The notes under the pieces are model-generated. The model had not been told where the DNA came from. It did not search any database and saw only the letters and a program-made list of their open reading frames with translations. A stretch of 64,000 bases of DNA from Bacteroidales bacterium. Its GTDB lineage: Bacteria; Bacteroidota; Bacteroidia; Bacteroidales; P3. Below are positions 7,768-13,420 of this stretch, piece by piece (the first letter of the stretch is position 1; every line of letters starts with the position of its first letter). Location of the stretch: positions 1 through 64,000 of the forward strand of contig JAFXXI010000003.1 of NCBI GenBank assembly GCA_017542345.1. The letters run 5' to 3'. Position numbers and translations under genes: made by a program.

Positions 7768-8562
7768 TTAGTTGCGTCTGGTTTTTGGGTCGAGTGCGTA
7801 TTTGTAATATATGAGATAGGCTAACTGTATGGCAGAGGCTCCGGTAGAGATATACTTAGGCCAGTTCTCGTTGCGGTAGGCCTCGCGTTTCTTCTTGCGG
7901 GTGGGCTCCACATATACGATGTCGCCTTGCTGCAGGTAGTAGCAGGGCGAATCCAGCGTGCTCTTCGAGGTCAGGTCCAGCGTGTCGACCCGTACGCTGT
8001 CGCCGTGGAAGCGCATCACCGTGACCATGTCGCGCATCCCATACATCGTTATGTCACCGCATTGGGCGATGGCTTCGAAAATGGTCAGTCGATTGCCGTC
8101 GGAGAACAGAACTCTCGGCTGTGTCACCTCGCCGATAACGCTGACGTGGAAGTTCATCAGTTTCGCGGTCACTACAGGGTCTTTCACCAACTTCTGTTCC
8201 TTCAGCCGGGTTTCGATGTAGCGCGCCAGGTCGTCGCGGGTGAGTCCGGCGGCCTGCACCTCACCCAGTATCGGGAAGTGTATCTTGCCTTCCTGATTCA
8301 CGCGGTAGCCTTTAATCTCTGTTTTCTCAACAGCCTTTCCCATGTTTGTTTCCTCGTTGAACGGAATCACACTTTCGGGCATATTGCTGCTCACATAGAG
8401 GTAGAGCAGGTCGCCTGGGAATACCAATGAACTGTAGTTGTTCTCGATTGGCATCTCCTCGTTCCGGGGAGCGTCTTTCAGGTAGGCATACTTCTGTTGC
8501 GTGCCGCATGAGGCACACAGCAGGACTGCCACAGCGATATATGTCCAGCGTCTCATGGTCAT
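7768..8562 (-). CDS. Wza-like polysaccharide export lipoprotein
   Basis: A 264-aa outer-membrane lipoprotein (signal MTMRRWTYIAVAVLLCASC, lipobox CASC). After it come a Poly_export domain (about 45-140, including the VNQEGKIHFPILGEV segment) and an SLBB-like region (about 150-225, HVSVIGEVTQPRVLF). Such proteins form the outer-membrane exit channel for capsule or exopolysaccharide. The ATG at 8562 overlaps the ligase stop (ATGA), indicating coupling, and fixes the start despite a longer open frame upstream. A C-terminal hydrophobic stretch (SAIQLAYLIYYKYAL) could be a membrane helix. No glycosyltransferases or Wzc kinase are close by, which is unusual. Confidence 0.82.
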   Translation of the reverse strand: MTMRRWTYIAVAVLLCASCGTQQKYAYLKDAPRNEEMPIENNYSSLVFPGDLLYLYVSSNMPESVIPFNEETNMGKAVEKTEIKGYRVNQEGKIHFPILGEVQAAGLTRDDLARYIETRLKEQKLVKDPVVTAKLMNFHVSVIGEVTQPRVLFSDGNRLTIFEAIAQCGDITMYGMRDMVTVMRFHGDSVRVDTLDLTSKSTLDSPCYYLQQGDIVYVEPTRKKKREAYRNENWPKYISTGASAIQLAYLIYYKYALDPKTRRN

Positions 8563-10424
8563 TTCTCGTTTTTCTTTCCCCACGGCATGGTGGGCAGCTC
8601 CACTGACTTGAAGGCCGAGAAGAAACCGGCAGCGTTGCTTCTCTCTTTGCCGAAGATGTCGGCTATCAGGTCTTTGTATTTCTCTGTCAGGGGACCGCGG
8701 CGCAACTTCAGCGTGGGCGACAACAATCCGTTGGCGGGCGTCCATTCGTCGACCACCAGGCGGAACTGTTTGATTTGCTCGTGCGGAGCCAGCGTTTTGT
8801 TGTACACATCGAGCACCTTGCGGTACTTGTCGTGCACCTGCGGCAGGCTAATCAGTTCGTTGTTGTCCCGGTAGTGCAGGTGGTATTTCAGCGCCCAGTA
8901 GTGCAAGGTGTTGAAGTTGGGGCTGATGAGGGCTGCCACCTGTTTCTCGTTCTCGCCGATGACCATCACCTGCTCGATGTATTCCGAGTCGCGCAGCATG
9001 TTCTCTATCAGCTGGGGTGCCACATACTTGCCTGCCGAAAGTTTGAAGATATCTTTCTTGCGGTCGGTTATCTTCAGGTATTTTCCACCCACCAGCTCGC
9101 CGATGTCGCCAGTGTGGAACCATCCCTCTTCGTCGATGACCTGTGCTGTGTATTCCGGGTCTTTATAGTATCCCATCATCACATGCGGTCCACGCGTCAG
9201 GATTTCGCCGTCTTCGCCGAATTTCATCTCCACACCCTTTAGTATGGGTCCCACGGTGCCAATCTTCACCATGTTGTGGGCGGGGTCGTTGACGGCAATG
9301 ACCGGGCTGGTCTCGCTCAGTCCGTATCCCTCATAGATATTGATGCCCGCGGCGGCAAAGAGGCGTACCATGTTGGGTTGTATGGAGCTGCCGCCGGTAA
9401 TGACGGTGAGGCGTTTCCCGCCGAACTTCTCGCGCCATTTGCTGTACACGGCCTTGTCGAGGAACCACTGCGCCAGCTGATAGAGGAGGCTGACCTTTTT
9501 GACGAGCGTATAGTCATAGCGTTTGCCGTGCCAGAAGGCCCAGTCGTAGATACGTTTCTTGATGCCTTTGAAGTCTTTGCCGGCGGCATACAGCTTGTCA
9601 TAGACCATCTCCAGCACGCGTGGCACGGCGCAAAAACCGTCGCCTTGTATCTCCAGCATGTTCTGCTGTATGGTGCCCAGGCTCTCGGCATAGTAGATGC
9701 TGACGCCTTTGACCTGCCAGTGGTAGTTGAGCGAGCGCTCATAGATGTGGTTCAGCGGCAGGAAACTCAAGGCGCGGCAGGAACTGTTCATGGGGTTCAC
9801 CTCGGCATGTGCCAGGAAGTTGCTGCACAGGTTGCGATGGCTCAGCATGACTCCTTTGGGCAACCCCGTGGTGCCGCTGGTGTAAATCATCGTCACCCAG
9901 TCCTCAGGCTTGATGTCGCGTTTGCGCTGCTCTATTTCCGCCATCCATTTGTCGCGGTTGGCGATACCGGCTTTCAATATCTCCAGCATCCGGTGTTCGC
10001 CTTCGATGTTGGTCAGGGTGTATACTGTCGGCTTCGGGTCCAGTTGGTCCAATGCACCGCGCAAACGGCCCAGCAGCACCTTGGTGCTCACAAACACAGC
10101 CTGTGCTTCGCTGTGGGTCAGTATGTGCTGGTAGTTCTCGGTCGAAAGGGTGGGGTAGATGGGCACATGGACAATGCCGCACAGGGCCAGCGCCATGTCA
10201 ATGAAGTTCCATTCCGGGCAGTTGCCGCTCATGGTCACCACACGGTCACCACGCTTCAGCCCCACCTCGCACAGTCCATAGGCCAGGTAGTGGGCATATT
10301 TGTAGTAGTCGTGCGACGAATATTTTACCCATTCGCCGTTCACTTTGCCGGCGAGAATGTCGTCTTTCGGGAAGCGCTCCACCAGATGGTCGAGCAAGTC
10401 AAATGTTCTAGTTATCTCTGCCAT
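8559..10424 (-). CDS. Long-chain fatty acid-CoA ligase (AMP-binding)
   Basis: A 621-aa member of the ANL adenylate-forming family. The P-loop YTSGTTGLPKGV (about 180), the GYGLSETSPV motif (about 370) and the DxxGxxDRKKDIFK-type hinge (TDRKKDIFKLSAGKYV, about 490) are all present. It activates fatty acids to acyl-CoA at the membrane surface. The ATG at 10424 is chosen because the family alignment starts there (MAEITRTF); the frame continues upstream through promoter sequence. It leads an operon with the export lipoprotein and CstA. The length and C-terminal region fit the Bacteroidetes/FACL15-like group. Confidence 0.92.
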   Translation of the reverse strand: MAEITRTFDLLDHLVERFPKDDILAGKVNGEWVKYSSHDYYKYAHYLAYGLCEVGLKRGDRVVTMSGNCPEWNFIDMALALCGIVHVPIYPTLSTENYQHILTHSEAQAVFVSTKVLLGRLRGALDQLDPKPTVYTLTNIEGEHRMLEILKAGIANRDKWMAEIEQRKRDIKPEDWVTMIYTSGTTGLPKGVMLSHRNLCSNFLAHAEVNPMNSSCRALSFLPLNHIYERSLNYHWQVKGVSIYYAESLGTIQQNMLEIQGDGFCAVPRVLEMVYDKLYAAGKDFKGIKKRIYDWAFWHGKRYDYTLVKKVSLLYQLAQWFLDKAVYSKWREKFGGKRLTVITGGSSIQPNMVRLFAAAGINIYEGYGLSETSPVIAVNDPAHNMVKIGTVGPILKGVEMKFGEDGEILTRGPHVMMGYYKDPEYTAQVIDEEGWFHTGDIGELVGGKYLKITDRKKDIFKLSAGKYVAPQLIENMLRDSEYIEQVMVIGENEKQVAALISPNFNTLHYWALKYHLHYRDNNELISLPQVHDKYRKVLDVYNKTLAPHEQIKQFRLVVDEWTPANGLLSPTLKLRRGPLTEKYKDLIADIFGKERSNAAGFFSAFKSVELPTMPWGKKNEK

Positions 10425-10482: not shown

Positions 10483-10515
10483 AAAAACATGCACATTCTG
10501 TTGAAAATGTGCATG
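10480..10515 (-). terminator. Rho-independent terminator of the T9SS-protein operon
   Basis: Read on the minus strand: perfect 10-bp arms (CATGCACATT and its complement, 10515-10488) followed immediately by eight T. It ends the operon whose last gene stops at 10554. Confidence 0.8.
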
Positions 10516-10553
10516 TCTGATAATGGAATCTGTTGAATAAAACTGTTTGTCGG

Positions 10554-11540
10554 CTAGTGTTTCACCACTTTCCCCGACCATCCTCCGGTGCGCACAATGT
10601 ACACGCCGGTGGCAAGGCCGCGCAGGTCGAATGTGGCGCAGCCGTCCATGGCACGGCTGTCGCGCACGAGACGCCCGTCGGTGGAGTAGAGGCTGACATG
10701 CTGGCCGCTGTTGCAGCTCACCTTGACGTGGTCGGTGGCAGGGTTGGGCCAAATCACCGTCACTGGCTCGGCCGGAGACTCGTAGATGCCCATTGTCGCG
10801 CTCAGCACAGCTACGCCCGTCAGGTCGAAGCCGCCGCTGGCCCAGATGGTGTCTTTTGTAGGATAGGGGTCGTTGACCATGTGGCCGTAGGCGTCATGGG
10901 TGGCATACTGCGGGTTGATAGTGCCCACCACGTCGACTACACGCACATAGACGATGCTGTCGATGTCGATGCCGGCGCTGTCGCGCAGCTCCTCAAGGTC
11001 GAAGGGGGTGCCGTAGCCTATGCGGTACTTGCCGGCCAGGTTGTTGAGCTTCGTGGGGTCCACACTGCCGTTGCTCCCCACCTGCGTGGCGGTCGGCGTG
11101 AGCGAGGTGGATGGGAAGCGCACATAGTGCTCGCCGTCGGTGCTCACCTCGACGAAAGCCAGTTCAAGGAAACTGTCGTTGAACGAGTTCTCGAACACGG
11201 CAAAATCGGGACCTGCCACGTTGCGTATGGGGCTCTCGAAGGTCAGCACAGCACTGCCGCCGTCGCCCAGGCTCACAGCGTCGCGCGTGTCGAGGCTGGC
11301 CACACCGGTGCCGTAGCTCTCTTCGCCGAAACGCACATGGGGCCCGTTGGGGTCGACAATGTCCACCGGCCCGCGCACCACGTTGCAGCCTGTGGCCCAG
11401 CCGATGATGGCGGGGTGGGTGTGGGCGATGGCGTCACACCCCTCGGTGCCTACGGCTCCACAGAAAGAGCCCTGCCCCTGGACATGCAGGCCGCACGCCA
11501 GGAACAGGACGATGAAGATTGATGTCAACTGTCGGCTCAT
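10554..11540 (-). CDS. Secreted T9SS-sorted protein, cobalamin-riboswitch operon, second gene
   Basis: A 328-aa exported protein (signal about 1-22, LFLACGLHVQGQ) with a type A T9SS sorting domain over the last 75 residues (VIWPNPATDHVKV then GVYIVRTGGWSGKVVKH), so it should be carried across the outer membrane and anchored or released. The central domain (about 40-230) is a beta-rich 'cell-surface protein' type with GPDFAVFENSF, ELAFVEVSTDGEHYVRF and NLAGKYRIGYGTPFDL. I associate this domain with Bacteroidetes vitamin B12 loci, from memory only. It lies 13 bp after the first gene and shares its riboswitch. A corrinoid-binding role is inferred from the regulation, not shown by the sequence. 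Confidence 0.75.
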   Translation of the reverse strand: MSRQLTSIFIVLFLACGLHVQGQGSFCGAVGTEGCDAIAHTHPAIIGWATGCNVVRGPVDIVDPNGPHVRFGEESYGTGVASLDTRDAVSLGDGGSAVLTFESPIRNVAGPDFAVFENSFNDSFLELAFVEVSTDGEHYVRFPSTSLTPTATQVGSNGSVDPTKLNNLAGKYRIGYGTPFDLEELRDSAGIDIDSIVYVRVVDVVGTINPQYATHDAYGHMVNDPYPTKDTIWASGGFDLTGVAVLSATMGIYESPAEPVTVIWPNPATDHVKVSCNSGQHVSLYSTDGRLVRDSRAMDGCATFDLRGLATGVYIVRTGGWSGKVVKH

Positions 11541-11553
11541 TGTAGTTCAGTGC

Positions 11554-12825
11554 TTAGTGGCGGACGGCGACTTTGACAGTCTCGGTGCCGGCGCGCAGCA
11601 TGTAGATGCCGGCGGGCATGGCGCTGACGTCAATGCCGAGCTGTGCGTTGCGCACCTCGTAGGTGGCTACCTGGCGGCCAGCCATGTCGTAGAGCACGGC
11701 CTCGTTGGCCTGCACGCCTTCCAGCGTCACATTCATGCGGCTGCTGGCAGGGTTGGGCCAGACGGCCAGTTTGCCAGCACTGACAGCATGGATGCTGCTG
11801 GTGGAAGGCACGCTCACAGGATGGATGGTCATCGGCCACACATAGGTGTAGTCCCAGTATCCGCCCCAGTCGGGAACCCAGGTGCTGTCGGCCTTGACGG
11901 CGACATAGGTGTCGGCAAACTTCACAAAGTCACCGTTGACCACGGCGTGGCCGGCGGCGCCGACCATCGACGAGACGTGGTTGACCTGCATGTTGAAGTA
12001 TATGCTGTAGTCGCTGGGGTCGTGGGGAGTGATGCCCAGGGTGTCGGTGATGTTGGCATCGGCATAGTGGAAGTCGCTGACGAAGGTCGAGTCGCCCTCG
12101 ATGCTGAGACGCGGGTCGGCGGCCACGAGGGCACCGATAATCTCGCTCACAAAGACGCTGTCGCTGCTGAACTTGTAGCCCCAGGCCAGCGCGGTGTCGG
12201 CCCAGTTGATGGCAAAGACCACCTTGTTGTTGCCGTTGCCCACCCAGTAGACGATGTCGCTGGCGGCAATCTCGGCGTCTTCGGGCGTCGGCTCCACGGG
12301 AGTGTCGCCGTTGGGGTCGGGTGCCATAATCATGGTGTCGGCGGGATACGACTCGTAGGTATACTCATCCATCGGCAACCAGTCGACGAAATCGCCGCTA
12401 ACCATGATGTCGGCAGCTGCACCCATAGATTGCTTGTTGGAGCCGTCGGCAGCCGACCAATTGTACCACCACCAACCTTCGGGACCGACCAGATTCAGAC
12501 CCAGCTCAGTGTTTATATAGGTCAGGTTGTTGATGAGCGTGTAAGTATCGGTGCCATGCGCAATGGTGAAGTTGGCGTCGTAGGTGGCGATGGTATCCAT
12601 CAAATCGGCAACCGAGACATTGTCACCATTCCACTGCACACCCCATGCAATACCGATATTACCGGCAGTAGCGTCATTCCAGGTGACGGCAATGACAGCG
12701 CGATTGCTACCCGTACCTGTCCAGAACTGGATGTCACTCTGAGGAACCACGGGGTTCGAATACTGGGCCATGACGCCAAAAGACATCATCAGGCCTAATG
12801 CTAACGTAAGTATTTTTTTTACCAT
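11554..12825 (-). CDS. Secreted T9SS-sorted protein with duplicated YWVG-type domain, cobalamin-riboswitch operon, first gene
   Basis: A 423-aa exported protein (signal MVKKILTLALGLMMSFGVMAQ). The body holds two copies of one domain: copy 1 (about 28-150) begins SDIQFWTGTGSNRAVIAVTW, and copy 2 (about 187-310) begins SDIVYWVGNGNNKVVFAINW. Each is followed by an AWGxxxxxD segment and a DPRL/DANF-type helix. The last 75 residues are a type A T9SS sorting domain (LAVWPNPASSRMNV to GIYMLRAG). A cobalamin riboswitch precedes it. Capture of B12 or corrinoid at the cell surface is the natural inference; known surface B12 proteins of Bacteroides are BtuG and BtuH, and I cannot equate this protein with either. 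Confidence 0.75.
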   Translation of the reverse strand: MVKKILTLALGLMMSFGVMAQYSNPVVPQSDIQFWTGTGSNRAVIAVTWNDATAGNIGIAWGVQWNGDNVSVADLMDTIATYDANFTIAHGTDTYTLINNLTYINTELGLNLVGPEGWWWYNWSAADGSNKQSMGAAADIMVSGDFVDWLPMDEYTYESYPADTMIMAPDPNGDTPVEPTPEDAEIAASDIVYWVGNGNNKVVFAINWADTALAWGYKFSSDSVFVSEIIGALVAADPRLSIEGDSTFVSDFHYADANITDTLGITPHDPSDYSIYFNMQVNHVSSMVGAAGHAVVNGDFVKFADTYVAVKADSTWVPDWGGYWDYTYVWPMTIHPVSVPSTSSIHAVSAGKLAVWPNPASSRMNVTLEGVQANEAVLYDMAGRQVATYEVRNAQLGIDVSAMPAGIYMLRAGTETVKVAVRH

Positions 12826-12971
12826 ATTGATATTGTTTTAGTTTGTTAATACTTCCAATCTCAATATCGGTATCGGAAACGGGGGAAATCCGCGTGGCGG
12901 GGGCAAAAGGGCGGCCAGGCCGTCTGTCACCGGAGTGCTTTTTCCTCGAAAGCGGTACCGATTTCATCGGT

Positions 12972-13140
12972 TTGGCAGGTCTTCTGGCTTGCTCGCTTTC
13001 GCCCCGTCTTCCCATGCGCCTATGGCGACACACAGTGACGTATATCGTTGGGCTTCAGCTTGTGAGCTTACAGCAGCGGGACTGCGCCGGACTCTCACCG
13101 GCTTCCCTCTTGGCGCCCTCGTCGGGCGACCAAACCGGCG
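12972..13140 (-). ncRNA. Cobalamin riboswitch
   Basis: On the minus strand the leader contains the class hallmarks in order: GGGAAGCCGGTGAGAGTCCGG, then GCAGTCCCGCTGCTGTAA, and at the 3' end AAGCCAGAAGACCTGCC (the B12 box and kissing-loop partner region). It begins just after a perfect promoter and ends about 147 bases before the ATG at 12825. Such riboswitches turn off expression when adenosylcobalamin or a related corrinoid is plentiful. No clear terminator follows, so control is probably at translation initiation. Confidence 0.95.
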
Positions 13141-13141
13141 G

Positions 13142-13172
13142 CAAAAATAGTAAATAAAATTCACATGGCAAA
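13142..13172 (-). promoter_or_regulatory. Promoter of the cobalamin-riboswitch operon
   Basis: Minus strand TTTG (13172-13169), 19-bp spacer, TATTTTTG (13149-13142). Transcription would start a few bases inside the riboswitch 5' end. Confidence 0.82.
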
Positions 13173-13210: not shown

Positions 13211-13331
13211 GCTCCCCTTCCCCTCCGGTTCCCCTCCGCTCGTTCTACGGTCGTTCTACGCTCGTTCTACGGTATTTCTACGGTTTTTTACCGTTAAACG
13301 AGCGTAGAAGGAGCGTTGAACGACCGTTGAA
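13211..13331. repeat. 11-bp-period inverted array, locus 1
   Basis: Eleven consecutive 11-bp units with no register slip. The left half uses units of the type CGTTCTACGGT and the right half their complements (AGCGTAGAAGG, GACCGTTGAAA), meeting at a TTTTTTACC centre. The first units drift to pyrimidine-rich CCCCTCCGGTT. It lies between the riboswitch promoter and the M3 peptidase gene. The rest of 13173-13420 holds nothing else I recognise. Confidence 0.85.
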
Positions 13332-13420
13332 ATGGTGGACAGGATGCTGGGAGTAAGGCTGTTGAGAAATATGCGGAGGCGGACACAATAAATCCGGATG
13401 CCGACGCGTTAAGAAAACAG

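Follow-up and report, generated by a model that had tools for sequence, protein, structure and literature searches.

Why does a cobalamin riboswitch stand ahead of two genes for proteins with export signals, in an operon that holds no B12 transporter? The question is posed by genes A and B, which form a two-gene operon on the reverse strand of a 64,000-nucleotide stretch of a Bacteroidales genome (contig JAFXXI010000003.1, positions 1 to 64,000), here called the window. Our answer, to which we give a probability of about three in four, is that the operon encodes a surface-anchored kit for capture of vitamin B12 (cobalamin), made under B12 shortage; in this answer the folds are predicted, and binding, regulation, anchoring and hand-off are what we infer. 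The putative corrinoid-capture role is supported by predicted fold, by sequence, by conservation of the operon and by gene fusion.

The first-pass annotation of the window had placed a cobalamin riboswitch ahead of two genes, and the results bear this out. The RF00174 model matches at full length (model positions 1-189 of 189; 111.9 bits vs. a gathering score of 31.5; E 3e-27) and is the sole Rfam match above threshold within the window, and genes A and B follow with a gap of 13 bases between them.

Riboswitch linkage across relatives

Among Bacteroides proteins, BtuG, BtuH and BtuJ have been established as binders of B12 (available text of PMC12751083). A scan of named genomes for gene A gave 288 pattern matches, 265 of which were confirmed; the best 80 of the 265 stretches correspond to 79 distinct loci, all with Bacteroidota titles or the title 'bacterium P3', and most from ruminant gut samples. 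A riboswitch lies upstream on the same strand in 76 of the 79, confirmed by a B12 box in the DNA, and in these 76 the earliest gene whose product has a domain of A, B, BtuB or BtuG begins no more than 245 bases downstream; in the three loci without a riboswitch (L045, L074 and L080) the frames run off the contig. This count, from a survey that the first-pass annotation had suggested, rules out chance juxtaposition of riboswitch and operon. The B domain is adjacent or fused to A in 70 of the 79 loci (a separate neighbour in 27, fused in 41, both in 2), with A only in the other 9. BtuG was detected in 11 of the 79 and BtuB in 2, by phmmer with this genome's two proteins, an insensitive search. 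Whole-genome Rfam searches gave 1-6 cobalamin riboswitches per genome.

Linkage is also found in samples picked by the repeat of gene A rather than by the riboswitch. A family sample of 61 genomes, 26 of which have the repeat (this one included), yielded 27 further loci: 22 are preceded by a same-strand B12 box, 3 are cut by the contig end and 2 have no box; for the 22, genes between a distant box and the repeat gene were only partly strand-checked. In 9 of the 27 the repeat gene comes after BtuB and BtuG, with 3-7 kb separating it from the box in such loci. At phylum scale the repeat is rare: 8 of 395 sampled genomes have it, this one among them. The seven other genomes contribute eight repeat loci, seven with a B12 box and the eighth stopping at a contig end. 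Loci L142, L144, L145 and L147, from the same class, are riboswitch-btuB-btuG-btuH-repeat operons, and at L142:7782-10022 and L144:8717-10990 one protein comprises a gene A-type repeat, then a DUF5074 (BtuG-like) propeller, then a tail of the type IX secretion system (T9SS), the propeller scoring 378 bits and the tail 53.9 bits in L142. At L148, from the same order, the repeat is in a lipoprotein-like gene downstream of btuB-btuG. In another family of that order the repeat occurs in 6 of 121 genomes, with a B12 box in one of five short flanks scanned (L151).

Seven giant frames of about 1650-2380 amino acids (L005, L006, L010, L036, L054, L072 and L081) carry gene A-type repeats; a B12 box precedes each, five of the seven contain the B domain, and two (L005:11883-18131 and L081:6356-13492) have fn3 domains and a T9SS tail. 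For gene B homologues, most of the listed phylum-sample matches cover nothing but the sorting tail. Seventeen B-core loci, drawn from at least 23 genomes (leaving out G350, G416, G366, G157, G089 and G443), divide into 11 with a B12 box plus BtuB and/or BtuG around B and 6 without a box; flanks of 1.5 kb contained almost no B12 boxes, which appeared in wider stretches.

The first-pass annotation had also stressed that no B12 transporter is nearby. This stands for the two-gene operon, where btuB, btuFCD and tonB are absent, a local absence only, but not for the genome. The assembly (1.26 Mb, 70% complete) contains two cobalamin riboswitches, and downstream of the second, on another contig, come genes for a TonB-dependent receptor (103 bits to TonB_dep_Rec, 49 bits to Plug) and for a protein of DUF5074 type (33.9 bits), which by sequence we read as a BtuB-like and BtuG-like pair. 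A PF02310 (B12-binding domain) protein was not found in this 70%-complete assembly, an absence likely due to incompleteness because such a protein is encoded in 58 of the 61 family-sample genomes, including every one of the seven other genus members.

Predicted folds of the two proteins

Gene A is fully taken up by a signal region, two repeats and a sorting tail. The duplication proposed at first pass is confirmed: the repeats, each about 120-150 residues, are 27% identical, with BLAST E of 1e-11 to 8e-11. Among the 50 Foldseek matches listed for the models of A and B, B12 binders are absent, and the structural relations given here were seen only in a second look with VIA-align. In that second look, beta-domains of intrinsic factor, haptocorrin and transcobalamin account for 13 of the 14 best rows for the repeat 2 model, with a fold match spanning about 95-100 residues. 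DUF4430, a family of the SLBB superfamily that we take to cover the beta-domain of these three carriers, is above cut-off (23.8 bits) in the longer gene A homologues P0079, P0089 and P0218. The results indicate a predicted resemblance of the gene A repeats to the beta-domain of intrinsic factor and transcobalamin, located in the fold of repeat 2 and in the DUF4430 matches of longer homologues. Gene A differs from these carriers in having a T9SS tail, in having no alpha/alpha toroid partner (none in the Pfam scan or in the secondary structure of the model), and in carrying the domain in tandem, with two copies in gene A and as many as five consecutive ones in relatives. Sequence searches of PDB gave weak matches only with gene A as a single sequence (best E 0.089), a match to the sorting tail with homologue P0079, and nothing significant with the repeat profile (best, a ThiS chain at E 0.62); profile comparison of gene A with BtuH found no relation.

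For gene B, the model of the core matches the B12-binding domain of BtuH2. Comparison with the BtuH profile gave a weak, local link (hhalign E 1.3e-5, probability 80, 52 columns), as did an hmmsearch match to 8blw (E 2e-5, likewise weak and local), while the single sequence against PDB gave weak matches only (best E 0.13) and a profile of close homologues reached sorting tails only and not BtuH. Two BtuH2 contacts, Asn399 and Phe401, align with N118 and F120 of gene B, the comparison covering these two because alignment failed for the remaining six contacts; in B homologues N118 is conserved in 20/20 and 53/53, and F120 in 20/20 and 48/53. Homologues of B in relatives also share riboswitch-btuB-btuG neighbourhoods with BtuH. 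In contrast to BtuH1 and BtuH2 of B. thetaiotaomicron and to the BtuH part of BtuGH, gene B is distant in sequence, has a T9SS tail in place of a lipid anchor, and has no PKD or propeller domain. Gene B thus looks like a distant BtuH relative with a T9SS tail, and not like a new kind of protein.

Layout of the locus

The coordinates are collected in Table 1. As had been proposed, a promoter-like pair of elements lies at the head of the operon: TTTG and TATTTTTG are both present, the latter being what we take, from the general consensus, to be the Bacteroidota-type -7 element. Of 76 homologous loci, 74 have a TAnnTTTG in the 90-base stretch that surrounds the start of the riboswitch, vs. 7% in shuffles; the offset is identical in 49 and differs by two bases in 16. 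The claim of termination after gene B also holds, judged by position: a scan of the region found one terminator-like site where about 2.5 are expected by chance, so that the case rests on the placement of the hairpin and not on the scan. Computed folding of the leader 3' of the aptamer (z -2.1) gave no clear terminator.

Table 1. Features of the cobalamin-riboswitch operon (window coordinates)
Feature	Position	Strand	Basis or content
Bacteroidota-type promoter	13142..13172	(-)	TTTG 13172-13169; presumed -7 element TATTTTTG 13149-13142
Cobalamin riboswitch aptamer, RF00174	12957..13149	(-)	B12 box 12974-12989
Gene A, 423 amino acids	11554..12825	(-)	likely signal peptide, two DUF4430-like repeats, T9SS type A sorting tail
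Repeat 1 of gene A	12342..12747	(-)	114.7 bits to repeat profile (profile built with repeat 1 included)
Repeat 2 of gene A	11806..12276	(-)	138.7 bits to repeat profile (profile built with repeat 2 included)
T9SS type A sorting tail of gene A	11575..11763	(-)	TIGR04183/PF18962 matches
Gene B, 328 amino acids	10554..11540	(-)	likely signal peptide, BtuH-like core, T9SS type A sorting tail
BtuH-like core of gene B, residues 24-248	10797..11471	(-)	predicted fold and weak sequence link
T9SS type A sorting tail of gene B	10569..10754	(-)	TIGR04183/PF18962 matches
Intrinsic-terminator-like hairpin and T tail, 3' of gene B	10485..10518	(-)	terminator scan

Between the riboswitch promoter and a divergent M3 peptidase gene, at window positions 13230-13344, four direct copies of an 18-base unit with 11-base spacing lie within a 55-base inverted repeat that is 75% complementary. 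A nearby gene, at window positions 7768-8745 (-), encodes an SLBB-domain protein of polysaccharide export; this domain is remotely related, at superfamily level, to the transcobalamin beta-domain, and the proximity is most likely coincidence.

Proposed display and capture, and competing explanations

Both translations start with hydrophobic N-termini, from which signal peptides were called by eye only, and both end in the type IX sorting domains claimed at first pass, above cut-off in either model (TIGR04183/PF18962: 38.7 and 39.8 bits for gene A, 28.2 and 34.6 bits for gene B, the second value of each pair being Por_Secre_tail with a cut-off of 27). Of the T9SS machinery, the two parts searched, SprA (2397 bits) and the PorU sortase (850 bits), are encoded in the genome. 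According to the capture reading, low cellular corrinoid would permit expression through the riboswitch and high corrinoid would turn the operon off, a step we infer because RF00174 matches and because reporters driven by the btu promoters tested in B. thetaiotaomicron are almost silenced by B12 and pseudocobalamin (available text of PMC12751083). The two proteins would then cross the inner membrane via their signal peptides and the outer membrane via T9SS, and the type A tail would attach them to the surface, where gene A would bind corrinoids with its two beta-domain-like domains and gene B with its BtuH-like domain. Captured corrinoid would be handed to the BtuG-BtuB pair of the second riboswitch locus, as the operons of relatives that combine these parts suggest. 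In mammals B12 is sandwiched between toroid and beta-domain. A more specific version, in which tandem beta-domains displayed by T9SS grip B12 as a clamshell, the second repeat or the BtuH-type domain replacing the toroid, is tentative, and we hold it less likely than its simpler parent.

An alternative is that A and B are released as soluble, siderophore-like corrinoid carriers to be retrieved later by BtuG-BtuB. The T9SS tails, with no lipid anchor apparent by eye in either product, would fit release, as would the precedent of BtuJ of B. thetaiotaomicron, which is vesicle-borne and acts at a distance (available text of PMC12751083). However, 99 of the 120 gene B homologues listed have a T9SS tail and the other 21 have an N-terminal lipoprotein-like cysteine (a pattern picks out 16 and inspection by eye 5; it is a loose pattern that also matches 11 of the 99 tail-bearers), so that the B domain seems to be displayed via either route, T9SS tail or lipid anchor, and anchoring is favoured over release. 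PorU is encoded in the genome, and type A tails usually lead to attachment on surface lipopolysaccharide. We consider release unlikely.

Slightly less probable still is that the repeats and the B domain bind another ligand (haem, a peptide, a glycan or a host protein), with B12 merely the regulatory signal. Several points weigh on that side and against B12 capture. The gene A-type repeat also occurs on proteins without a riboswitch: an M14 zinc carboxypeptidase of this genome (L141:7153-8889, contig C4; one repeat and a T9SS tail), with no B12 box in the surrounding 16 kb, and, in relatives, an fn3 protein and a POT-family transporter frame (L171:8266-10554, 762 amino acids; repeat-profile match E 4e-27 near the N-terminus). 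Carboxypeptidase and transporter hint at a peptide link, and because two of these three carriers are of peptide-linked kinds, another ligand is possible for some repeats; the repeat on the carboxypeptidase may serve one. Gene A itself gives no match to DUF4430 (PF14478) at E ≤ 1. CBM32 folds are further, lower-Z structural matches of the gene B core, and a CBM32 fold ties with its 8blw match, which lowers confidence slightly. SLBB-type beta-grasp domains, moreover, accept varied ligands (available text of PMC1796856). On the other side, the riboswitch linkage is near one-to-one (76/79 and 22/27), operons are held in common with btuB-btuG-btuH, and the top structural matches of both proteins are B12 binders. 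Finally, cobalamin riboswitches can control B12-independent isozymes, but it is highly improbable that the operon encodes a B12-independent surface function standing in for a B12-dependent one under B12 scarcity, since neither product has an enzyme domain above curated cut-off and relatives hold these genes inside uptake operons.

How different would B12 capture by genes A and B be from known systems? The first-pass annotation had proposed a different capture design. Riboswitch control and the T9SS tails are supported, but the design is not independent of BtuB and BtuG, given the second locus of this genome and the many relatives with A and/or B homologues inside a BtuB/BtuG operon, and gene B looks BtuH-like. 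With BtuG, a DUF5074-like beta-propeller, the homologues of A and B share operons, and some genomes of the same class fuse propeller, repeat and tail, whereas neither A nor B has a propeller match and this genome has its BtuG-like gene at the other locus. With BtuJ/DUF4465, A and B would have in common riboswitch linkage, B12 binding and, in part, an export tail; DUF4465 membership (PF14717) is ruled out, there being no match in A, in B or in any protein of this genome. We take IPR026444 to be the T9SS sorting domain. This entry is present in 229 of 824 DUF4465 sequences (PMC12751083, the available text of which does not use the word T9SS). B12 binders with C-terminal export tails have thus already been noted, and the idea is not new.

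For the beta-domain the precedents are more remote. The transcobalamin-like SLBB clade is described from animals, low-GC Gram-positives, planctomycetes and some archaea, Bacteroidota not being named in the available text, and a 2007 proposal derives the animal B12 carriers from Gram-positive bacteria (PMC1796856). A literature search, with most subscription papers outside it, found nothing tying DUF4430 or transcobalamin-like repeats to Bacteroidota uptake loci. If our reading is true, T9SS proteins with the tail as their sole Pfam domain would gain a testable function, and gut-associated Bacteroidota would display relatives of the B12-gripping half of intrinsic factor on their surfaces, as multivalent traps produced when needed, which would bear on B12 competition among these bacteria and on the origin of the animal B12 carriers.
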